A stretch of 44,881 nucleotides of DNA from Anaerolineae bacterium (lineage in GTDB: Bacteria; Chloroflexota; Anaerolineae; J102): the NCBI GenBank assembly GCA_026991225.1, contig JALXCB010000136.1, forward strand, positions 1-44,881, given 5' to 3'. The notes below the pieces were generated by a model. It had not been told where the DNA came from. It ran no database searches and saw only the letters and a program-made list of their open reading frames with translations. The translations under genes were made by a program, and so were the position numbers. Shown here in pieces: positions 19,796 through 44,881 of this stretch (the stretch's first letter is position 1; every line of letters starts with the position of its first letter).

Positions 19796-19838
19796 GTTGA
19801 CTGACAAATCTTGAGTCTGTCCTTTCCGACCATATTCA

Positions 19839-19967
19839 CCGAGTAAACTCGGACTCTTCAGGCGCTTCGCGCCTGTGGTCGACCTTCGTCGACCTGATTT
19901 CCATCATGAACATGGACGGCGGAGGCCGTCCACTGGCCGCAGGCCTGGAATGGTACGACTTCAGTCG
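19839..19967. repeat. Chain-of-hairpins element, copy 1
   Basis: Six short hairpins in series: CCGAGT/ACTCGG (19839-19852), GGCGC/GCGCC (19861-19873), GGTCGAC/GTCGACC (19877-19894), GGACGGC/GCCGTCC (19914-19931), GGCC/GGCC (19935-19945) and CGACT/AGTCG (19956-19967). The same order recurs at 42681-42808 with paired base changes in the third stem. It fills most of the gap between murB and ddl. Confidence 0.88.
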
Positions 19968-34809: not shown

Positions 34810-34851
34810 TCAGAAGATCAGAAACCAGCATTCAGAAATCAGGAACCAGAA
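34810..34851. repeat. Heptad tract at the end of the DGR target gene
   Basis: Plus-strand units AGATCAG, AAACCAG, CATTCAG, AAATCAG, GAACCAG at 7-bp spacing. It begins about five bases from the VR and carries the target's TGA stop codon on the minus strand. Confidence 0.7.
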
Positions 34852-37800
34852 CGACGAGAGATGGGGACGACCACCACACGAAACCCGAGATTGTTGAACC
34901 TGTAGCCCGGGAAGTTCCCGTCGCGGGCGGACGAGGTGACGCCCTTGGCGTTGTTCCACCAGGAGCCGCCGCGAAGGCGACCGGGCGGTTCGAGCACCCA
35001 CTCCCACACGTTACCGTTGAGGTCATGGACGCCCGCGGGCGTGGCCCCGGTGGGATACATGTGCACGGGCGTGGTCTGGCCCAGGCCGCTTTCTTTCGAA
35101 TTGACCTTGGCGGGGTCGAAGTCATCGCCCCAGGCGTAGCGGGCGGGGCCGGCCGCGGCCTCCCATTCCTGCTCCGTGGGCAGCCGCACCTCCTCACCCG
35201 CCCCAATGATCCCCTCCTCCCGCCAGCGTTCGGTCAGCCACTGGCAATAGGCCCGGGCCTCGTACCAGCTCACGCCCACCACAGGCTGCGTCGATTTGTT
35301 GAGACGGGGTTCGTCTTGGTAACGCGGGCCCTGACGCCAATTTCTGTTGAATAGCCAGCTTTCGATATCCTTGACGGCTTCTTCGCTCCACCAAGGCTTG
35401 TCTTCGTCATACCCGCCTGCGTCCATAAAACGCTGATACTGGGCATTGGTCACGAGGTATTTGCCCATGCGGAAGGCGTAGCCCAGGCCCGCCGCGTCGA
35501 TGGGGATGAGCTCGGCCAGGTCTTTAGGCAGCACGCCCAGGTCGGCCAGGATGAGCCCGGCCTCCAGGCGTTGGCGGGCCACCGCCCGCACCCGGTCCTC
35601 CGCCAGGCCCCCGGGCATGGGCAGGTCAGGGTTTTGCATGATGGCGGTGAGCGCAGGAGCCAGATCCTCCAGCAGGTCCTCGGCGTCTTCATCGTCCAGG
35701 CTGCCAACGCCGTATTCCAGCCAGGCCCGGCCCGCCAGCACCGGGGCCTGCCAGCGGCTGGGATCTTTTTTCATGCCCCGGGCCAGTCTCTGGACGATGC
35801 TGAGCCAGTATCCCTCCATCTGTACATCCTTGATGGTGAGATAGCCGCACGCGAGGAGGATGACTTCATGCCAGATATCATTTTCCACCAGGCCCAGGAA
35901 GGTGCGACCGGGATTCTTCAAGGTGAGAAGCCAGCGCGCGGCCAGATATTCCTGAAAACTGCGATGGGGGAAAACAAAGGTGTCATCCTCATCCGGGATG
36001 AGCAAGCCGCTGCGTTCCCGCATCAAAGCAATGACCCGCGCGGCCCACGTTTCCGCTTCGAACCTGCTGCGGCCTTTTTGCCCATACAAATCGATCAGAG
36101 CCTTTTTCAAATCCGAGACGTGGATGGCGGCCGATCGCTCCCGGCCGCTCTTGGCGTGGGCTTCATAGGTCAGCTTCCACAACATTTTCTCGAATTCGGC
36201 CTTATCGATGGGAGGCTCTGCGGCATCGAGCAAGAGCCGTAAGCGGGCGACCTCCCCCTCTTCCGCCTTTTGCTTGTCCCATTCCCACAGCAACTGCTGC
36301 ACCACCTGATGATACAACTCCACCCGTCTTTCCGGGAGGTCGGAATGGGTGTTGACCATGGCCAGCATAGTGAGGAGCAAAGGCGTACCCGCCATCTCTT
36401 GCAACACCTGACGTTCATCGATGGTCTTCAGCAATTTATCCCGCTTTGCCTGCGCCTTCTTTGGCTGCACGATCTCTCCCACCCGCAACATCTCGTCATA
36501 CCATTGCTGGACGAAGCGCCGAATCCGGGGATCATCAAGCGGCGCGAGCGTCGCTTCTGTGAATTCCGTCAGCCGATACCGGGGCGCGTTGTAGGGGCGG
36601 ATGCGGCTGGTGACCAGCACCCGGCATTGGGGATGGGCGATGCGAAATTCCCGAATGCTGTCGATGATGACTTGGCGATGATTGAAGTCGGAGGCCCGTT
36701 CGGGCACGGGCGCTTCATCCAGACCATCGAACATGACCAGGGTCTGAGGATGACTGAGACGCTTGATGAGCTGCTGGCGATCGATGCCGCCCTTGAATTC
36801 CCTTTCGATTGCCCAATACACCAGTTCCACATCGGGTTTGTCCACGCCTTCTCCGGTTTCACGGTTGGGTTGCGAACGAAGCATGCTGCTCCAGCGTCGA
36901 ATGACGACGCGAATGGGGAAAAGGGGCGCTTCGAAGGGGGCACCCAGCATGTCGCGCCATCGGGGCTCTTCCCCCAGATGCGCTCCCGCCAAAATATAGG
37001 CCAGATAATTCACGAAAGTGGATTTGCCCGATCCCGGGTTGCCCAATAGCACCAACTCCGCATGCTTTGCCAACACCTCCACCGCGGTGAGCGGCGCCAA
37101 CGCCCGGGCCAAGGCGTCTCTATCTGCGGCCCAGCGGCTCAAAGGATGGCGCTTCCAATCTTCTTCTTTCTCTTCCGCCAGCCGCATCAAGCTCAAACCA
37201 TACTCTCTGACGGCATCGACGTTCACTTTCCGGACGTCTCCACCGCCCCGCCGCAACAGCCAGGTGTTCATGGCTTCTCGCAAGGTCGGGCGTTGATCCT
37301 GAGGCACCTGCAATCGGTCGAAAACATCATCGAGTGTCGGCAGTGGGCTTTCCACCGCCAGATCCACATACACCCGATGCAATTCCACCCGCTTTTCCTG
37401 CGCTTGCCGATCCTTTTCCGTGCTCAGCGCATCTTCCGCCAACCTGACCCGGTCGGTCTTTTCGCGCAGACGACGCAGGTAGCTTTTCTCCCCTTCTTCC
37501 AGCCGTAATTCCCTCTGACTTTCAATCCACGCCCGCACTTGCGCTTGAAGCTGTGCGATTCGCTCATCAAGTCTGTCCACCTTGCCCTCGGTACGCAACA
37601 CACTGCGCCCGATGACGAGCAGCGCCTGCTCCTCCAGGGGCAGCAAGGCCTGGCGCACACACAGCAGATAGACGCGCACGGCCAGGTCCCGCTGGGCCGG
37701 GTTCAGGCCGGGCCAATCGCGGGCGATGGCCTGACGCAGGGCTGCTTCCAGCGCGTCCTCGTTTGGGCTTTGGGGCAGCGCGTCCAGGGCCTTTTGCAGC

Positions 37801-38066
37801 GCGGGCAGGTCTCGCAGGGGCAGATCATGCATCCACTGCTGCAGGGCGCTGTCCCCCACCTGCTGCATGAAGCAGGCGTCGGCCTGGTTCATGGCTCGGG
37901 ACAGGGCCTTTTGGTTTTCGCCCGCCTTCAGCCATGCATCCAGACGGCTTTCCGCCTCATCCAGACCCACATCAGCGATCACGGACAGGGTCCCATCTCC
38001 CACGGCTTTGCTCACCGTGTGTTTCAACAGGGCTTTGCCCAGGCGCAACGGGAATTTGCCGTTCAT
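34839..38066 (-). CDS. DGR target: NACHT NTPase with C-terminal FGE/C-type-lectin-like variable domain
   Basis: A 1075-residue STAND-class protein. Residues 1-300 are mostly helical with a coiled-coil-like stretch (about 165-230), the likely effector or adaptor part. The NACHT domain has Walker A GNPGSGKST (342-350), Walker B LVMFDGLDE (443-451), GTPLLLTML (560-568) and FPHRSFQEYLAA (699-710). About 720-860 is helical. From about 867 a formylglycine-generating-enzyme-like domain follows (MGKYLVTNAQYQRFM, VGVSWYEARAYCQWL, LNGNVWEWV, RGGSWW, LGFRVVVV). Its last part, residues 1046-1070, is encoded by the VR; D1049, G1050, F1052, G1054, Y1055, F1057, L1060, P1068 and I1069 differ from the template. 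It lacks sign of secretion. ATG 38066 has GGAG eight bases upstream. Confidence 0.93.
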   Translation of the reverse strand: MNGKFPLRLGKALLKHTVSKAVGDGTLSVIADVGLDEAESRLDAWLKAGENQKALSRAMNQADACFMQQVGDSALQQWMHDLPLRDLPALQKALDALPQSPNEDALEAALRQAIARDWPGLNPAQRDLAVRVYLLCVRQALLPLEEQALLVIGRSVLRTEGKVDRLDERIAQLQAQVRAWIESQRELRLEEGEKSYLRRLREKTDRVRLAEDALSTEKDRQAQEKRVELHRVYVDLAVESPLPTLDDVFDRLQVPQDQRPTLREAMNTWLLRRGGGDVRKVNVDAVREYGLSLMRLAEEKEEDWKRHPLSRWAADRDALARALAPLTAVEVLAKHAELVLLGNPGSGKSTFVNYLAYILAGAHLGEEPRWRDMLGAPFEAPLFPIRVVIRRWSSMLRSQPNRETGEGVDKPDVELVYWAIEREFKGGIDRQQLIKRLSHPQTLVMFDGLDEAPVPERASDFNHRQVIIDSIREFRIAHPQCRVLVTSRIRPYNAPRYRLTEFTEATLAPLDDPRIRRFVQQWYDEMLRVGEIVQPKKAQAKRDKLLKTIDERQVLQEMAGTPLLLTMLAMVNTHSDLPERRVELYHQVVQQLLWEWDKQKAEEGEVARLRLLLDAAEPPIDKAEFEKMLWKLTYEAHAKSGRERSAAIHVSDLKKALIDLYGQKGRSRFEAETWAARVIALMRERSGLLIPDEDDTFVFPHRSFQEYLAARWLLTLKNPGRTFLGLVENDIWHEVILLACGYLTIKDVQMEGYWLSIVQRLARGMKKDPSRWQAPVLAGRAWLEYGVGSLDDEDAEDLLEDLAPALTAIMQNPDLPMPGGLAEDRVRAVARQRLEAGLILADLGVLPKDLAELIPIDAAGLGYAFRMGKYLVTNAQYQRFMDAGGYDEDKPWWSEEAVKDIESWLFNRNWRQGPRYQDEPRLNKSTQPVVGVSWYEARAYCQWLTERWREEGIIGAGEEVRLPTEQEWEAAAGPARYAWGDDFDPAKVNSKESGLGQTTPVHMYPTGATPAGVHDLNGNVWEWVLEPPGRLRGGSWWNNAKGVTSSARDGNFPGYRFNNLGFRVVVVPISRRSGS
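34856..34934 (-). other. DGR variable repeat (VR)
   Basis: Last 79 bp of the variable domain, matching the template at 33122-33200. All 12 differences correspond to template adenines: A to G at four, A to T at six and A to C at two. The unmutated, nearly adenine-free stretch CGGGTTTCGTGTGGTGGTCG near its 3' end is suited to be the initiation-of-homology region. VR ends 15 bp before the stop codon. Confidence 0.96.
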
Positions 38067-38140: not shown

Positions 38141-38199
38141 AGCGCAGCGGGCGGTTGGGATGCATCCAAGATCATTGACGCGTTACGCCAGGCACCCCG

Positions 38200-38320
38200 G
38201 AGGTGAACCTCCGGGCTAGAAACGACGCCCCTGAGGGCTTTTGGCGTGAGCGCGTGTCAGGAGCCGGGTTCACCCGGCGTCGTTTTGTAGCCCGGCGCTT
38301 CAGCGCCGAGTATGAGACCA
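38200..38320. repeat. Hairpin-rich repeat related to the window ends
   Basis: GGAGGTGAACCTCC hairpin followed by GGGCTAGAAACGACGCCCC, then GCCGGGTTCACCCGGC and GTAGCCCGGCGCTTCAGCGC. The same series of words occurs at 44240-44360 and in part at 1-60. Confidence 0.75.
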
Positions 38321-38496: not shown

Positions 38497-38634
38497 GCTA
38501 TGCCGTAATAGCGCGTTGGCGCTACCTTCAAAAGGTTGACAAGCCAACGATGAGCGAGTCTACCACGACGTGAAACGTGAGATCATTACGCATTACGCAT
38601 CACGTTTCACGCCTGGCTTCCTCGCCAATCCAAT
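38497..38634 (-). repeat. R1 palindromic repeat copy
   Basis: GCTATGCCGTAATAGC-like end, degraded left arm GCCAACGATGAGCGAGTCT, core GTGAAAC, GTGAGAT with complements ATTACGC, ATTACGC, ATCACGT, right arm GGCTTCCTCGCCAATCC. With the promoter and the hairpin repeat it fills the 614-bp gap; no gene is seen. Confidence 0.8.
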
Positions 38635-38680
38635 CACCCGAATGCTCCATCAACCAACACGTACTCCCGGAGGTGTGATC

Positions 38681-39094
38681 ATGGCCTATCTCTTCCCATC
38701 TGCAGAATGGGTCGCCGCGTTCAAAGAAGCCATCAACAACAATGAAGCGTATCGTAAATCAGCCGCCAAATGGGAAGGCGATTTCTACTTCATCGTCAAG
38801 GGCAAGGGCCTGGAAAAACCCTTCGTCATGTATCTGGACCTGTGGCACGGGGAATGCCGGGAAGCGCATGTGGTCGAGGATATGAACGAAAAGACGCCCG
38901 AATTCATCATCGAGGGCGACATCGAGGTCTACAAGCAGATCTTCGACAAAAAACTCGACCCCATCCGCGCCCTGGTCAGCCGTAAACTCAAGCTCAAGGG
39001 CAACCTGGGCAAAATCATGCGCTCGGTCAAGGCCACCCTGGACCTGGTCAACTCCGCCGCGTCCGTGCCCACGGAATATCCCGAGGGCGCTTGA
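38681..39094 (+). CDS. SCP2 sterol-binding-like protein
   Basis: A 137-residue protein resembling the SCP2/sterol carrier fold, a small hydrophobic-pocket domain that binds lipids or acyl chains. Seen: FPSAEWVAAFKEAINNNEAY at the start, ANW-like amphipathic strands with FYFIVKG and VMYLDLWHGE, and a C-terminal helix with KLKLKGNLGKIMR. That last KGN-G-KLM region is typical. The ATG at 38681 has CGGAGGTG seven bases upstream, which decides the start over a longer open frame. Ligand unknown. Followed by alcohol dehydrogenase and aldehyde oxidoreductase genes, so a link to fatty-chain alcohols or aldehydes is possible. Confidence 0.8.
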   Translation: MAYLFPSAEWVAAFKEAINNNEAYRKSAAKWEGDFYFIVKGKGLEKPFVMYLDLWHGECREAHVVEDMNEKTPEFIIEGDIEVYKQIFDKKLDPIRALVSRKLKLKGNLGKIMRSVKATLDLVNSAASVPTEYPEGA

Positions 39095-39121
39095 AAATCG
39101 ACGTTGCTTGCAACGAATCGC

Positions 39122-39233
39122 CAGGCCAACATTGGGCGAGCCTGCAACCGGCGTGACACGTGATGCGTGAAACGTGAGGTCATTACGCATCACGCATCAC
39201 GTATCATTCCCCGGCTTCCCACGCCAACCTGGC
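39122..39233 (-). repeat. R1 palindromic repeat copy
   Basis: Left arm GGCCAACATTGGGCGAGCC, TGCAACCGGCGTG, core GTGATGC, GTGAAAC and complements ATTACGC, ATCACGC, ATCACGT, right arm CCGGCTTCCCACGCCAACC. A CTGATTA, CTGATAA, CTGGACC heptad tract (39240-39260) follows and stops just before the alcohol dehydrogenase start. Confidence 0.88.
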
Positions 39234-39267
39234 CCCCAAGACTGATTACTGATAACTGGACCCGATC

Positions 39268-40440
39268 ATGTGGTACTTCGACGCCCCTGAAATCATCTAC
39301 GGCGAGGGCGCGCTGAGCGAACTGGAACAGATCAAAGGCTCACGCGCGTTCATCGTCACCGACCCGGTGCTGCACAAGCTGGGTTTCACAGAAAAAGTCG
39401 CGGAGCACCTGCGCAACGCGGGGATGGAAGTGGCCTCCTTCACCGAAGTCGAGCCCGAACCCTCCCTCCAGACCGTGCAGAAGGGCGCGGAGCAGATGCG
39501 CGGGTTCCAGCCCGACGTCATCGTGGGCCTGGGCGGCGGCTCCAGCATCGACGCGGCCAAGGCCATGTGGGTGCTCTACGAACGGCCCGACCTCCAGCCC
39601 GACGAGATCAGCCCCATGATCGAGCTGAACATCGGGCAAAAGGCCAAACTCATCGCCATCCCCACCACCGCGGGCACCGGCTCCGAGGCCACCTGGGCCA
39701 CCGTGCTCACCGACAAGACCGACGGCCGCAAGCTGGCCCTGGGCTCCCGCGAGACCATGCCCACCACGGCCATCGTCGATCCTGAGATGAGCAAAGACAT
39801 GCCCCCGCGGCTCACCGCGGACACGGGCCTGGACGCGCTCACCCACGCGGTGGAGGGCTACCTCTCCAGCTTCCACAACGACTTCACCGACGGCATCTGC
39901 CTCAAAGCTATCCAGCTCGTCTTCGAATACCTGCCCCGAGCCTACGCCGAACCCCACGACATGGAGGCCCGGGAGCACATGGCCAACGCCGCCACCCTGG
40001 GCGGCCTGGGCTTCATCAACTCGTGGGCGTCCCTGGCCCACGCTATGGGCCACGCCTTCGGCGGACAGTTCCACATCCCCCACGGGCGATGCGTCAGTCT
40101 CTTCCTGCCCTACACCCTGGAATACATCGCCAAAGAACCGGAACTCACCCGCTTCCGCGACATCGCCCACGCGCTGCGCTTGCCCGAAGGGAACGCGGAC
40201 GAGCCTGCCGCGGCCAAAGCGGTTATCGCGGCCATCCGGGACCTGCACCGGCGGTTGGGCCAGCCCCTGACCGTGGCCGAGCTGGGCCTCTCCCGCGAGG
40301 AATACGAGGCCAAACTGGACGATCTGGTGGAGTTCGCGGAAGGCGACGGCACCTTCATCAGCGCGGTGCGCATCCCCGAGCGAGAGGACATCGAGAAACT
40401 CTTCCTCTACGCCTATGACGGCCGCGAGATCGACTTCTGA
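39268..40440 (+). CDS. Iron-containing alcohol dehydrogenase
   Basis: A 390-residue group III (Fe-dependent) alcohol dehydrogenase interconverting alcohols and aldehydes with NAD(P)H. The nucleotide loop GLGGGSSIDAAKAM is at about residues 88-101, and TAGTGSEATWATVLT follows. The metal ligands by alignment to the family are Asp189, His193, His258 and His272 (in LDALTHAVEGY and HAMGHAFGGQFHIPHG). Full length. No Shine-Dalgarno. Downstream is the aldehyde oxidoreductase, suggesting paired aldehyde metabolism. Substrate not determined. Confidence 0.93.
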   Translation: MWYFDAPEIIYGEGALSELEQIKGSRAFIVTDPVLHKLGFTEKVAEHLRNAGMEVASFTEVEPEPSLQTVQKGAEQMRGFQPDVIVGLGGGSSIDAAKAMWVLYERPDLQPDEISPMIELNIGQKAKLIAIPTTAGTGSEATWATVLTDKTDGRKLALGSRETMPTTAIVDPEMSKDMPPRLTADTGLDALTHAVEGYLSSFHNDFTDGICLKAIQLVFEYLPRAYAEPHDMEAREHMANAATLGGLGFINSWASLAHAMGHAFGGQFHIPHGRCVSLFLPYTLEYIAKEPELTRFRDIAHALRLPEGNADEPAAAKAVIAAIRDLHRRLGQPLTVAELGLSREEYEAKLDDLVEFAEGDGTFISAVRIPEREDIEKLFLYAYDGREIDF

Positions 40441-40490
40441 AATAAAGATCAAAGACTGATGATAACTGCTTACGTAGCAAGTTCAAAAAC

Positions 40491-40643
40491 CACGAAGACA
40501 CAACGACACGAAGGCACGAAGGGTAAAAGTGGCAGGTGGCAAGTAGCAAGTCGCAGGTGAAAATTCGCTGCCAGAAGGACTTGCCACTTGCGACTTGCAA
40601 ACCTGCAAACCTTCGTGTCTTCGTTCCTTCGAGCCTTCGTGAC
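40491..40643. repeat. Nested heptad palindrome (R2 copy 2)
   Basis: Outer arms of CACGAAG-type units (40491-40522 and 40610-40643), inner arms of GTGGCAG, GTGGCAA, GTAGCAA, GTCGCAG (40529-40559) and the complements ACTTGCC, ACTTGCG, ACTTGCA (40579-40606). Same plan as 135-262. No gene is seen in 40441-40761. Confidence 0.8.
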
Positions 40644-40717
40644 AAGGCATTTTCGAGGCCGAATCAGGCTAGCTTAGCAGTTACGACTGATGACTAAAGA
40701 AGGTTTGCCCGAAGCGC

Positions 40718-40756
40718 CTTAATCTTTAATCTTCAATCTTTCGTCTTCAAACCTCA
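40718..40756. repeat. Heptad tract before the aldehyde oxidoreductase
   Basis: AATCTTT, AATCTTC, AATCTTT, CGTCTTC, AAACCTC at exact 7-bp spacing, ending a few bases before the ATG at 40762. It is the complement of the TAAAGAC/TGAAGAC type seen before mraY. Confidence 0.8.
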
Positions 40757-40761
40757 ATCCC

Positions 40762-42639
40762 ATGCCCGACATCCCCCAATCCTACACTCCCGCTCCCCCG
40801 CGTCCTCTGCCCGGCTACATGGGCAAAACCCTTTATGTCGACCTGGCCACGGGCCGCATGTGGGATGAGCCCATCCGCGAGGATTACGCCATGCAATTCG
40901 TGGGCGGCAGCGGCCTGGCCGCCCGCTATCTGTGGGACCTGCTCACGCCCAAGACCGACCCCCTGGGCCCGGACAATCCCCTCATCTTCATGACCGGGCC
41001 TCTGGTGGGCACGGCCACCCCCGCGGCCGGGCGCTTTTCCGTGGCCGCGCGCTCTCCTGCCACCGGCCTGCTGGGCGAAGCCAACTCGGGCGGCTACTGG
41101 GGGCCCGAACTGCGCCGCACGGGCTACGACGGCGTCATCATCCTGGGCCGAGCGGCCCGCCCGGTGTGGCTGGAGCTGCGGGAAGACGCCGCGCCCCGGC
41201 TGCATCCCGCCGACGACCTCTGGGGCCTGGATATGTATGAGACGCAGGACGCCATCCGGGAGCAGATGGGCGACAAGCGGGTGCGGGTGGCGTGCATCGG
41301 GCCCGCGGGCGAGCATCTCGTTCTCTTCGCCGGGGTGATGAACGACCACGGTCGGGCGGCCGCGCGCACGGGCCTGGGCGCGGTCATGGGAAGCAAACGC
41401 CTGAAAGCCATCGCGGTGCGGGGCAAGGCTAAAGTCCCCGTTTTCCATCCCGACGAGAGCAAGCAGGCAGTGCGGGAACTCACCAATCATGTGGTGGAGG
41501 ACCTGACCGCGCAGATGATGCGCCTGGGCGGCACCATGCTCAACATGGACCTGGGCCCGGCCTTGGGCGACGTCCCCGCCTTCTACTACACCACCAACGT
41601 CCTCGACGGCATCGAAGACAAGGTCAATGCGGGCGAGCTCAGCGACCACTACCTCAAACGCCATGTGCCCTGCTTCCGCTGCCCCATCGCCTGCGGCCGC
41701 GAGATCCGCCTGCCCCTCACCGGGGATGAGGTGGTGGACGGGCCCGAATACGAGACCTCCGTCTCCTTCGGCCCCCTCATCGGCTCGGACGACCTGGAAG
41801 CCGCGGCCTACGCCGGGCATCTGTGCAACAAATATGGCCTGGACACCATCTCGACAGGCTCCACCATCGCTTTGGCCTACGACCTGTTCAACGCCGGCAT
41901 CATCGACGAAAGCGTCACCGGCGGCCTGCCCCTGGCCTGGGGCGACCCCCAGCCCGCGATCCAGCTCATCGAGCAGATCGCGCACCGCCGCGGCTTTGGC
42001 GACTTGCTGGCCCAGGGCGCGGCCCGGGTCGCGGCCCACTTCGGCGTCCCCGAGCGGGCCGTCCACGCCAAAAAGCTGGAACTGCCCTACCACGACATTC
42101 ACGCCTACTCAGGCCAGGGCGTGGTCTACGCCACCTCCCCCCGCGGCGCGGATCACATGGCCGGGGACGTGTACCACTGGGAGATGGGCAACGAATCGCC
42201 CGAACTGGAGATCGCGTACGGCGATCCCCATGACGAGTCCTTCGAGAAGATGGCGATGGTGGCCCGCATCATGGACTTTCGGGCCATGACCAACAGCCTC
42301 ATCCTCTGCCACTTCGAGGACGCGCCCATCCCCAATCTGCTGGAACTCATCCACACGGTCACCGGCTGGGATTGGTCGGTGGAGGACTTCCGCACGACCG
42401 CGGCCCGCATCTTCGAGCTCAAGCGCCTGCTCAACGCCCGTCTGGGCATGACCCCGGCCGACGACGCCTTGCCCGAGCGGGTGCTGAAAGCCTACGACGA
42501 GGGCCCCACCGCGGGCTACGCCCCCGATCTGGTGACCATGCTCAAACATTACTACGCGGCCCGGCAATGGGATCCGGCCACGGGCGTGGCGACAACAGAG
42601 CGACTGGCGGAGCTGGGGTTGGCGGGGCTTGTTTCCTGA
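40762..42639 (+). CDS. Tungsten-dependent aldehyde ferredoxin oxidoreductase
   Basis: A 625-residue AOR-family enzyme with a bis-pterin tungsten centre and one [4Fe-4S] cluster, oxidising aldehydes to acids with ferredoxin (or running in reverse). GKTLYVDLATGRMWDEPI and FVGGSGLAARYLWDLL open the family's N-terminal domain; PLIFMTGPLVGTATPAAGRF follows. The cluster cysteines are Cys304, Cys307, Cys311 (CFRCPIACGR) and Cys516 (SLILCHFE). Full length. No Shine-Dalgarno; the ATG sits just after a heptad tract. Together with the Fe-alcohol dehydrogenase it could convert acids, aldehydes and alcohols. Confidence 0.93.
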   Translation: MPDIPQSYTPAPPRPLPGYMGKTLYVDLATGRMWDEPIREDYAMQFVGGSGLAARYLWDLLTPKTDPLGPDNPLIFMTGPLVGTATPAAGRFSVAARSPATGLLGEANSGGYWGPELRRTGYDGVIILGRAARPVWLELREDAAPRLHPADDLWGLDMYETQDAIREQMGDKRVRVACIGPAGEHLVLFAGVMNDHGRAAARTGLGAVMGSKRLKAIAVRGKAKVPVFHPDESKQAVRELTNHVVEDLTAQMMRLGGTMLNMDLGPALGDVPAFYYTTNVLDGIEDKVNAGELSDHYLKRHVPCFRCPIACGREIRLPLTGDEVVDGPEYETSVSFGPLIGSDDLEAAAYAGHLCNKYGLDTISTGSTIALAYDLFNAGIIDESVTGGLPLAWGDPQPAIQLIEQIAHRRGFGDLLAQGAARVAAHFGVPERAVHAKKLELPYHDIHAYSGQGVVYATSPRGADHMAGDVYHWEMGNESPELEIAYGDPHDESFEKMAMVARIMDFRAMTNSLILCHFEDAPIPNLLELIHTVTGWDWSVEDFRTTAARIFELKRLLNARLGMTPADDALPERVLKAYDEGPTAGYAPDLVTMLKHYYAARQWDPATGVATTERLAELGLAGLVS

Positions 42640-42650
42640 TCTACTGCCAG

Positions 42651-42839
42651 GGTGTGTCCCAATTTTTTGGCAAGCACTCGCCGAGTAAACTCGGGCTCTC
42701 TAGGCGCTTCGCGCCATGGGTCGCCCTCCGGCGACCCTTTTCTTGTCGCCGTTTTGGACGGCGGAGGCCGTCCACTGGCCGCAGGCCTAAAGAGTTCGAC
42801 TTCAGTCGGCTGGATGACGCCAAATTTCTGGGACGCACC
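42651..42839. repeat. Chain-of-hairpins element, copy 2, with inverted ends
   Basis: Imperfect 21-bp terminal inverted repeats (42651-42671 and 42819-42839; 16 of 21 positions agree, shared GTCCCA and TTTGGC). Inside are the same six hairpins as at 19839-19967: 42681-42694, 42703-42715, 42718-42737, 42756-42773, 42777-42787 and 42797-42808. Stem 3 is GGGTCGCC/GGCGACCC here but GGTCGAC/GTCGACC in copy 1, with pairing kept. Confidence 0.88.
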
Positions 42840-42855
42840 CCACATCGGCAACGGA

Positions 42856-42884
42856 TTGCACGCCCTCGAGCCACGCGATATAAT
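42856..42884 (+). promoter_or_regulatory. Leaderless-type promoter of the antitoxin-like gene
   Basis: TTGCAC (42856-42861), 17-bp spacer, perfect TATAAT (42879-42884). The transcript should start at 42891-42892, at the ATG of the gene at 42892. Confidence 0.72.
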
Positions 42885-42891
42885 GTTCCCG

Positions 42892-43137
42892 ATGAACGCC
42901 ATGATTACGGAATACCACACCATCTTATCACGAGTGCGACGCTGGCCCGTAGAAAAACGGATCGCATCGCTGGAGGACGTGCTGCGCACCCTCGTTCCAG
43001 GTGAAGGCCCGGCATCAATTCGGCCCAAGGACACCTTTTCGAAAGCGCTAGGCCTGCTTCGTACGGAAAAACCATCGCCCACGGATGAAGAAGTCGATGC
43101 CATGCTCACCGAACATCGGCTGGAAAAGTACGGATGA
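42892..43137 (+). CDS. Antitoxin-like small protein (VapB position)
   Basis: An 81-residue protein starting MNAMITEYHTILSRV. The middle (WPVEKRIASLEDVLRTL) and the acidic C-terminus (SPTDEEVDAMLTEHRLEKYG) resemble small antitoxin-like proteins that precede PIN-domain toxins in Chloroflexota and cyanobacteria; the family name is not certain. It is directly followed, with a stop/start overlap, by the first part of a PIN toxin. ATG 42892 is chosen because the promoter starts transcription there; ATG 42883 lies in the -10 box. Possible job: binding the now truncated toxin and autoregulation. Confidence 0.6.
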   Translation: MNAMITEYHTILSRVRRWPVEKRIASLEDVLRTLVPGEGPASIRPKDTFSKALGLLRTEKPSPTDEEVDAMLTEHRLEKYG

Positions 43138-43271
43138 TGCGCGTCCTGTTTGACACCAACGTTATTCTGGACGTTTTACTCGACCGAAGACCGTGGGTGC
43201 AGGAGTCAGGAATGCTGTGGCGCGCAAACGATGAGGGGGCAACTCCTTCCGAATTGCTGGCTCAATTATGA
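43134..43271 (+). pseudogene. Truncated PIN-domain toxin (VapC-like) fragment
   Basis: A 45-codon open frame, too short for a full toxin of about 130 residues. It opens MMRVLFDTNVILDVLLDRRP, the first PIN motif with its catalytic Asp (DTN), continues through LWRANDEG and then turns into unrelated sequence ending LLAQL. The remaining PIN aspartates are missing, so it should be inactive. The start overlaps the antitoxin-like gene; the stop overlaps the patatin gene start by ATGA. A deletion or rearrangement has joined vapC to the patatin gene. Confidence 0.8.
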
Positions 43272-44065
43272 CATCCCAACTGACTTCGACCCAAAGGCCT
43301 TCTGCCCCTCAAACCAAACGTCTGGGCCTTGTCCTCAGCGGGGGAGCCGCGTTTGGGCTGGCCCACATCGGCGTATTGCAGGTGCTGGAGGAGGCGGGCG
43401 TGCGCGTCGACGCGGTGGGAGGGACCAGCGTGGGCGCGCTCATCGGCGCCGCGGTGGCCGCGGGCAAGTCGGTGCGGGAGATCACGCAGGTGGCCTATCG
43501 CATCAACTGGCTGCACCTGGCCCGGCCCCGCCCCCACCGCTACGGCTTCATCTCCTTCCGCAAACTGGAATGGCTGCTGAAGACCTGGCTGGGCGATCCC
43601 GATTTCGAAGACCTGAAACTGCCCTTCATCTGCGTGGGCACGGACGTGCTCACGGGCGAGGCCCGGGTGTTTCGCCAGGGCAAGGTGGCTCATGCGGTGC
43701 GCATCAGCGCCAGCGTGCCTCCCATCGTCATTCCGGCGGAGAAGGATGGCCGGTATTATGTCGATGGCGGGTTCTCCAACAACCTGCCCATCGGCCCGGT
43801 GGAGGCCATGGGCGTGGACGTCACCCTGGCCGTCAACCTCTTCGGCGAAGCCTCGCGCATGCCCCCCAACTATTTCGCCTACGCCCAACTCATCCTGGGG
43901 CACATGCTCACCCGCACCGCGGGCGATCCCAACCGGGCCACGGTGCTGGTCACGCCTAACCTGGCCGAAAACCTGGCCGCCCAATTCCATCGCACCTACA
44001 TTCAGATGGGTCGGGATGCCATGAAGGAAAAACTGCCCGACCTGTTGCGGGCGCTGGAAGTATGA
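43268..44065 (+). CDS. Patatin-like phospholipase
   Basis: A 265-residue patatin-family serine lipase or phospholipase. LVLSGGAAFGLAHIGVLQVL gives the oxyanion loop, GGTSVGA holds the nucleophile Ser54, and YYVDGGFSNN carries the catalytic Asp166 of the Ser-Asp dyad. Close to bacterial RssA/NTE-like proteins. It has no visible promoter of its own; translation appears coupled to the PIN fragment by an ATGA overlap, and the promoter at 42856 is the nearest. The N-terminal 17 residues (TSQLTSTQRPSAPQTKR) are poorly conserved-looking and the real start could be slightly downstream. Confidence 0.9.
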   Translation: MTSQLTSTQRPSAPQTKRLGLVLSGGAAFGLAHIGVLQVLEEAGVRVDAVGGTSVGALIGAAVAAGKSVREITQVAYRINWLHLARPRPHRYGFISFRKLEWLLKTWLGDPDFEDLKLPFICVGTDVLTGEARVFRQGKVAHAVRISASVPPIVIPAEKDGRYYVDGGFSNNLPIGPVEAMGVDVTLAVNLFGEASRMPPNYFAYAQLILGHMLTRTAGDPNRATVLVTPNLAENLAAQFHRTYIQMGRDAMKEKLPDLLRALEV

Positions 44066-44154
44066 GCACGCTCTTGAGCACAGGGGGGCACAGCGCGTTG
44101 GGGCGAGGCGTGGCCCGCCAGGGTGCCGCTGTGCATTGGCCCCGGTCAACCTAA

Positions 44155-44284
44155 TTAAACCGAAAGCAAATTGAAACCAAGGCTTTTGGTTCGCATTGGA
44201 TCATCAATGAATGGCGATTCTCTGGCCGCGCCGCCGCCCGCAGGTGAACCTGCGGGCTAAAAACGACGCCCCATAAATGGGGCC
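44155..44284. repeat. Terminal inverted copy B
   Basis: Reverse-complement counterpart of 7-134, including CCAAGGCTTTTGG, the CCCGCAGG/CCTGCGGG hairpin and CCCCATAAATGGGG. It is followed to about 44360 by further hairpins shared with 38200-38320. Open frames reading through it are repeat-derived. Confidence 0.85.
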
Positions 44285-44360
44285 ACGGCGCATGTCGCGC
44301 GCCGCAGGAAGCCGGGTTCACCCGGCGTCGTTTCGTAGCCCGGTGCTTCAGCTCCGGGTG

Positions 44361-44822
44361 GCCGAGGCCGAAAACACCTGATTTCAAAATGCGTTTAGTT
44401 TAGCGCTGAAATCTTAGATCAGGAATTTATCGAGAGGTAGTCTCCCTGCAGGGCATTGGTAAATTATTCATCTTGCTGAAATGGCATATTCCGAAATTCC
44501 ATCCGAGCACCGAATGATATTGACAACACACTCAAAAGGGAGACTATCCTCTTGTAGATCGATCTCAGGGAGCAACTAGTGAGCAATGGCAGGGCAGATT
44601 GGCAAGGCGTCAGGCATCTTACCCCAAAATTCTGTTACGACAGTATCGCCGGAATATCTGCCTACCAAACCCAATACTGGCCGTGAATTTTATGATTTTC
44701 AGCAGGTGCGTCATATCCAAGACACACATTTGTCTCTGGCACAAGCATAAAGTAGTTCGCTCATATTGGAATAGCAGACATGTTTTTTCGTCGAGTGAAC
44801 AAGGCAAGCAAAGATTGAAGAT
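44361..44822. other. AT-rich region with no supported gene
   Basis: Base composition drops clearly compared with the rest of the window. Overlapping open frames of about 75 codons exist on both strands (44599-44826 plus, 44619-44846 minus) but neither has a recognisable protein, a Shine-Dalgarno or a promoter. It may be foreign or the flank of a mobile element that continues outside. Confidence 0.4.
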
Positions 44823-44881
44823 ATGAGCAAAGCAACGAAAAAACATCAGAAACCATGTGATGGAGGATCATTTCCATACGG
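44823..44881 (+). CDS. Possible start of a gene running off the window
   Basis: An ATG at 44823 opens a frame without stop to the window end, reading MSKATKKHQKPCDGGSFPY. A weak GAAGA precedes it. With only 19 codons no family can be told; it may be nothing. Confidence 0.25.
   Translation, partial: MSKATKKHQKPCDGGSFPY

Follow-up and report, generated by a model that had tools for sequence, protein, structure and literature searches.

Orphan antitoxins and degraded toxin-antitoxin loci are described as numerous in Klebsiella (PMC7354431). Besides the VapBC-like family considered below, other antitoxin families have been named for PIN toxins in Chloroflexi and cyanobacteria, for example COG2442 in PMC2701414. 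Judged by title, none of the papers found dealt with an operon of vapC with a patatin gene, a pairing of aldehyde ferredoxin oxidoreductase (AFOR) with patatin, or exaptation of an antitoxin promoter by a downstream gene. We have analyzed a locus of an Anaerolineae lineage where a VapBC-like module appears to have lodged between AFOR and patatin genes, and to be decaying there.

The window analyzed is one whole contig (C136) of 44,881 nucleotides, belonging to a genome (G000) of 3.87 Mb in 201 contigs that is 97% complete. The features of the locus are as follows.

40762..42639, plus strand: AFOR, the old neighbor of the patatin gene (Pfam AFOR_C 8.5e-110, AFOR_N 4.8e-77)
42650..42840, no strand: MITE-like repeat with inverted ends (GGGTGTGTCCCA.../...TGGGACGCACCC) and a strong fold (from genome copies and fold z-score)
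42718..42737, plus strand: terminator-like hairpin within the MITE-like repeat (terminator scan)
42856..42884, plus strand: putative promoter TTGCAC-17-TATAAT (sequence, and pattern search across genomes)
42892..43137, plus strand: antitoxin-like gene lacking a Shine-Dalgarno sequence and carrying L26S (ORF, relatives, Shine-Dalgarno energies)
43134..43271, plus strand: remnant of a PIN_3 (VapC-like) toxin (Pfam, and comparison with the sister genome G005)
43268..44065, plus strand: patatin-like phospholipase, intact, nearest to RssA (Pfam, NCBIfam, dN/dS)
43268..43288, plus strand: first seven patatin codons (21 nt), identical to the toxin end and 3' flank of G005 (alignment)
44062..44154, plus strand: truncated start of an NAD-dependent epimerase, with 24 codons of similarity (similarity; ATGA overlap with the patatin stop)

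The initial annotation had placed a broken VapBC pair directly ahead of the patatin gene, with the stop of the toxin overlapping the patatin ATG, and in both respects it was correct. Successive frames share 4 nt each, the antitoxin and toxin remnant at 43134-43137, and the toxin remnant and patatin at 43268-43271. The lipase had also been called fused in translation to the pair; the frames overlap only, and there is no protein fusion.

Judged by its relatives, the pair is an ordinary VapBC-like family. The initial annotation had proposed looking for a full-length vapC in a sister strain, and one exists in G005, a genome of the same genus. Its toxin is intact, with 136 residues (P0002) and a PIN_3 score of 74.3 bits against a cut-off of 27, and in the PDB it matches a single entry at E<=0.01, the VapC 7by2 (E=3.9e-4). 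At E<=1e-15 relatives of this toxin are found in 52 of the 396 genomes of the class, its own included. Among named genomes they occupy 47 loci (by record title, 40 cyanobacterial, six Chloroflexota and one Acidobacteria), and the nearest relatives outside the genus are ~60% identical. An antitoxin-like ORF overlaps the toxin start at 42 of these 47 loci (counted by eye), ending 4 nt past that start, or 7 nt where the start was extrapolated. No such ORF was found at the remaining five (L111, L137-L140), in four of which the match begins inside the toxin. The family antitoxins end mostly in EKYG or EKYL. In Pfam and NCBIfam the G005 antitoxin matched no model at its cut-off, and two of the three antitoxin relatives scanned in Pfam matched Unstab_antitox under the cut-off (20.3 and 12.7 bits versus 23.3). 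Family identity with the COG2442-type antitoxins was compared through Pfam and NCBIfam.

The 45-residue ORF of the window matches PIN_3 with E=3.1e-4 and 22 bits, under the Pfam cut-off of 27, and covers profile positions 1-31 of 115. Aligned with the G005 toxin it comprises residues 1-35 (43134-43238), then the last 10 positions (43239-43268) and the native stop. A complete PIN domain is therefore absent; codons 36-126 of the G005 toxin are missing, exactly 91 codons and in frame, and the gene measures 138 nt against 411 nt in G005. Residues 2-10 of the last 10 positions align to the G005 toxin, while the first differs. The final nine toxin codons, the stop and 17 nt of 3' flank make up a 47-nt block that is identical to G005 at 46 positions, with an alignment score of 89 compared to a maximum of 26 in 2000 shuffles. 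The remnant had been described as the first 45 codons of a toxin. It is instead the first 35 plus the last 10 codons of a G005-type toxin, and a plain C-terminal truncation was rejected because the toxin C-terminus and native stop are still there. The comparison with G005 shows that an in-frame deletion of 91 codons took most of the PIN domain, so that no working toxin should be possible. Of the acidic positions that we take to be characteristic of PIN domains only the first, D7, remains in the window; D48, D96 and D118 of G005 lie in the lost part. No intact close toxin was found elsewhere in G000, where the best other toxin relative is 33% identical, and a genome-wide search for the PIN_3 family gave seven matches that did not include the remnant.

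It might be asked if the cell carries a complete toxin gene, of which 273 nt were lost in assembly. The genome is fragmented and the locus is seen on a single contig. The record of G005 is titled as a MAG, and in fragmented genomes such as these a deletion or frameshift in a single contig may be an assembly fault. Yet inspection by eye revealed no apparent repeat or microhomology at the deletion junction that might explain a collapse, and, as two sister genomes have lost the toxin at this same place, a genuine loss would be no surprise. We regard an artefact as extremely unlikely.

Six sister genomes of the genus (G001-G006) have close patatin orthologs, and the region ahead of the gene differs between them. 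In G005 the antitoxin is 83% identical to that of the window and is followed by the intact toxin. AFOR precedes this pair, separated from it by a repeat end and a 118-residue ORF; no patatin gene comes next, and the patatin is found on another contig. By eye, the same G005 contig (C104, locus L040; reverse complement, ~2362-2440) has behind the intact pair another, truncated start of the same antitoxin together with its upstream region, an arrangement that resembles the outcome of a tandem duplication. In G001 the order is AFOR, antitoxin (62% identical and ending two codons early), first toxin codons, patatin. G006 shares the toxin deletion of G001, and its antitoxin has lost 4 nt around codon 9 and is frameshifted again close to its end. 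In G002 and G003 patatin follows AFOR and the toxin-antitoxin pair is absent. Conservation of the junction, a check proposed in the initial annotation, was thus not observed. The overlap of toxin and patatin is seen in G000 only: it is missing from G001 and G006, where the toxin deletion is a different one, the pair is absent from G002 and G003, and in G005 the pair stands apart from patatin.

We compared 30 patatin loci (L009-L038), one per genome, of which 17 are of the same family and 13 of other families. A same-strand AFOR gene lies no more than ~1.5 kb upstream of patatin at 13 of the 17 loci of the family, counting the window, and at two of the 13 others. The four loci of the family without it are those of G004, G005 (697 bases of contig upstream), G006 (~1.75 kb) and G012, where the best patatin reaches only 38% identity. 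AFOR and patatin overlap or are within 50 nt of each other at many loci, with 28 nt between them in G003. Much of the family retains AFOR beside patatin, which makes the toxin-antitoxin pair the newcomer. Within the window, 38570-44065 holds a row of SCP2-like, iron alcohol dehydrogenase, AFOR and patatin genes, for which a route from fatty acid to aldehyde to alcohol is conceivable.

The module seems to have a history of its own. Between G000 and G005 dS is 0.186 for the antitoxin, 0.374 for AFOR and 0.873 for patatin, and, with the lowest value in the antitoxin, the module seems to move or recombine independently of the genes beside it. While the G000-G005 values suggest exchange, antitoxin dS stands at 1.29 between G000 and G001, so that there may have been one ancestral insertion or several. 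G001 and G006 are 94.8% identical over promoter and antitoxin and 82.0% over patatin. In 100-nt windows their identity is 94-98% in promoter and antitoxin and 87-94% from the junction into the start of patatin, falls to 72-86% along the remaining patatin and recovers to 83-95% in the epimerase. The high identity of the promoter-antitoxin segment may reflect its exchange, although the recovery in the epimerase shows patatin to be simply the most variable part. The patatin tree is poorly supported inside the genus, except for G001 with G006 (93), and in an AFOR tree, built on G000, G001, G002, G005 and part of G003, supports lie at 27-82.

The region downstream is also disturbed. The epimerase that follows patatin in G002 is cut to ~24 codons in the window. 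On contig C83 of G000 (L147) there is an intact epimerase, 72% identical to that of G002, near the last 23 codons of a second patatin, together with, by eye, the beginning of the gene found ahead of the pair in G005. The patatin-epimerase locus of G000 is rearranged.

The putative promoter ends 7 nt before the ATG of the 81-residue antitoxin frame, and the message would therefore be nearly leaderless. We searched ten genomes with the pattern TTGNNNN{10,16}GCGATATAATG. It matched once each in G000, G001 and G006, every time at the patatin locus; G004 and G021 each have one match elsewhere, the other five genomes have none, and a reversed-pattern control gave zero matches in all ten. The pattern is therefore present at the locus in three of the seven genus genomes (G000-G006), in one of which, G006, the antitoxin is decayed. 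A consensus scan of 42500-43400 listed no promoter; it would have missed this one because the -35 matches at only three of six positions. The assignment as a putative promoter is based on the TATAAT, the 17-nt spacing and the conservation.

Between AFOR and this promoter lies the MITE-like repeat, with a fold z-score of -7.9. At least 40 other places in the genome match it at 125 bits or more (40 of 214 candidates scored), and another copy is present within the window at 19836-19967 (78%). Flanking duplications of 8-9 bp were seen by eye in five of six other copies inspected (L003-L006 and L008; one mismatch), and the sixth, L002, matches only part of the repeat. The copy at 42650-42840 has no flanking duplication by eye, a hint of recombination there. 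The terminator scan of 42500-43400 gave two sites, one per strand, where 1.0 was expected from shuffles, and Rfam found nothing at gathering scores in 42500-44881. A second interspersed repeat was also noticed. Positions 44155-44288 match the first 134 bases of the contig (1-134) inverted at 93%, so that the contig begins inside a repeat, and 44237-44359 match 38196-38311 at 80%.

The initial annotation held that the lipase now seems to depend on the promoter and translation of the toxin-antitoxin pair. Given that the promoter pattern occurs once in each of the three genomes and always at this locus, the lipase may use it, and expression from the old antitoxin promoter is plausible from the sequence. 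As the repeat with its terminator-like hairpin separates patatin from AFOR, patatin is probably transcribed from there, and its translation probably depends in part on re-initiation at the ATGA overlap. The lack of a Shine-Dalgarno sequence ahead of patatin was considered as proof of coupling and rejected. The Shine-Dalgarno energies of five sister patatins that have no overlap (G001-G005: 1.5, -1.5, 0.4, -1.7 and -4.4 kcal/mol) span values similar to that of the window (-1.5 kcal/mol; AFOR 0.7 kcal/mol). Weak Shine-Dalgarno sequences were common among the starts examined, and the junction of patatin and epimerase is likewise ATGA in the window and in G002; both speak against attaching special weight to the toxin-patatin overlap.

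The antitoxin had been taken as intact. Its reading frame is open, but its Shine-Dalgarno sequence is gone (+0.3 kcal/mol, compared with -5.8 kcal/mol in both G001 and G005) and a near-invariant leucine has been replaced. Position 26 is Ser in the window and Leu in 47 of 49 family members (a filtered set that includes a few duplicates), as well as in G001, G005 and G006. Full antitoxin function had been assumed from the open frame, and these two changes speak against it. Antitoxin dN/dS between the window and G005 is 0.44 and not 1 (24 differences), which speaks to some extent against decay but cannot decide between decay and capture, and the G005 branch may still be constrained. No family of Pfam or NCBIfam, the DNA-binding families included, reached its cut-off with the window antitoxin, and no second copy was found in G000 at E<=0.001. 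As a side observation, residues 51-80 weakly match the end of the PADLOC model HEC-01B (23.5 bits), perhaps due to an antitoxin-like tail of that model.

One explanation of the locus develops that of the initial annotation, a captured regulatory module: promoter and orphan antitoxin would have been retained after loss of the toxin since the antitoxin binds its own promoter and in this way controls patatin. The arrangement in G000, G001 and G006, with promoter and antitoxin ahead of patatin and the toxin lost by two different deletions, is in keeping with this, as is the single occurrence of the promoter pattern in each. The 4.8-kb contig of G006 gave no AFOR but still has promoter, antitoxin remnant and patatin grouped. 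However, the G006 antitoxin has two frameshifts, the window antitoxin has lost its Shine-Dalgarno sequence and Leu26, and no DNA-binding family is recognized in it at cut-off. G002 and G003 do without promoter and antitoxin altogether, and the high identity of the G001-G006 block could be recent exchange, even though identity recovers in the epimerase. We consider capture doubtful. Repeated domestication, where promoter and antitoxin were kept, the toxin was deleted twice by different events and the lipase came under antitoxin autoregulation, is unlikely. What speaks for the earlier claim is a promoter pattern at the locus in three genomes; conserved regulatory capture does not follow from it, given a junction that differs among sisters and an antitoxin that is decaying in both G000 and G006.

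The orphan antitoxin might otherwise be kept as an anti-addiction factor that neutralizes related PIN toxins arriving on mobile DNA, with patatin a mere neighbor. Anti-addiction is a recognized proposal for orphan antitoxins (PMC7354431), the frame is open without a toxin in both G000 and G001, and an intact close toxin exists within the genus in G005. Against this are the degenerative changes in the window antitoxin and the frameshifts of G006, and we judge it very improbable.

The patatin gene itself is in good order. The protein has 265 residues and matches Pfam Patatin with E=1.6e-32 and 113.7 bits (cut-off 27.7), and its translation contains GTSVG (Ser) and DGG (Asp), which we take to be the catalytic dyad. 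Orthologs in G001-G006 are 79-90% identical, and dN/dS against these six genes is 0.07-0.19. The gene is under purifying selection. The six sister proteins have 256-257 residues, 8-9 fewer than the window protein. Over its first 21 nt the window gene shows no difference from the toxin end and 3' flank of G005, and no patatin lies behind the toxin there; these 21 nt may come from the 3' flank of the toxin, or be a patatin scrap kept at the G005 locus.

Patatin as a defense effector newly tied to a toxin, an idea raised in the initial annotation, was rejected. Matches to three PADLOC models of phospholipase effectors score 28.6-32.6 bits; CBASS_lipase gives 32.6 bits with a cut-off of 200 and DS2_1_antiphage 29.1 bits with a cut-off of 400, and AFOR is the usual partner in the family. 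Elsewhere in the window, the minus strand at 34839-38066 encodes a 1075-residue protein that, as read from its translation, resembles a NACHT-type NTPase with a formylglycine-enzyme-like C-terminus; it had no PADLOC match at E<=0.001.

Taking the evidence together, it is probable that a toxin-antitoxin module is decaying beside the lipase, with incidental expression of patatin, and that this is not a new regulatory device. An in-frame deletion has taken most of the PIN domain, and the antitoxin frame has stayed open while losing its ribosome-binding site and a core leucine. Any link in expression would then be a by-product of decay and not a maintained device. Decay of the antitoxin in G000 and G006 appears to argue against a maintained module, and the truncated epimerase just downstream also favors decay. 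On the other side, antitoxin frame and promoter persist in G000 and G001 after loss of the toxin, which could mean selection. The locus offers a clean case of the death of a toxin-antitoxin module at the level of sequence, with an intact state (G005), in-frame loss of the toxin (the window), another loss (G001 and G006) and loci free of the module (G002, G003), all centered on a single conserved gene pair. Should patatin really use the promoter, the locus would also illustrate, on a small scale, how a selfish module can leave its promoter behind. Existing knowledge of toxin-antitoxin systems and of patatins is not changed.

How does the locus compare with known systems? The best NCBIfam match of the patatin is RssA (PRK10279) at 106.1 bits, although it scores below the model cut-off of 272 and adjoins AFOR. 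With the VapBC systems of Chloroflexota and cyanobacteria that have a PIN_3 (PF13470) toxin, the pair shares its gene order, the overlap of stop and start, the PIN_3 start of the toxin and the C-terminus of the antitoxin. It differs in that the middle 91 codons of the toxin are gone, the antitoxin has no Shine-Dalgarno sequence and carries L26S, and a patatin gene is next. Like the orphan antitoxins of Klebsiella, as described in PMC7354431, it has an open antitoxin frame, no working toxin and a recognizable toxin remnant. Compared with that description, the toxin of the window has been lost in frame, and the ORF that is left overlaps the gene of an unrelated conserved enzyme.
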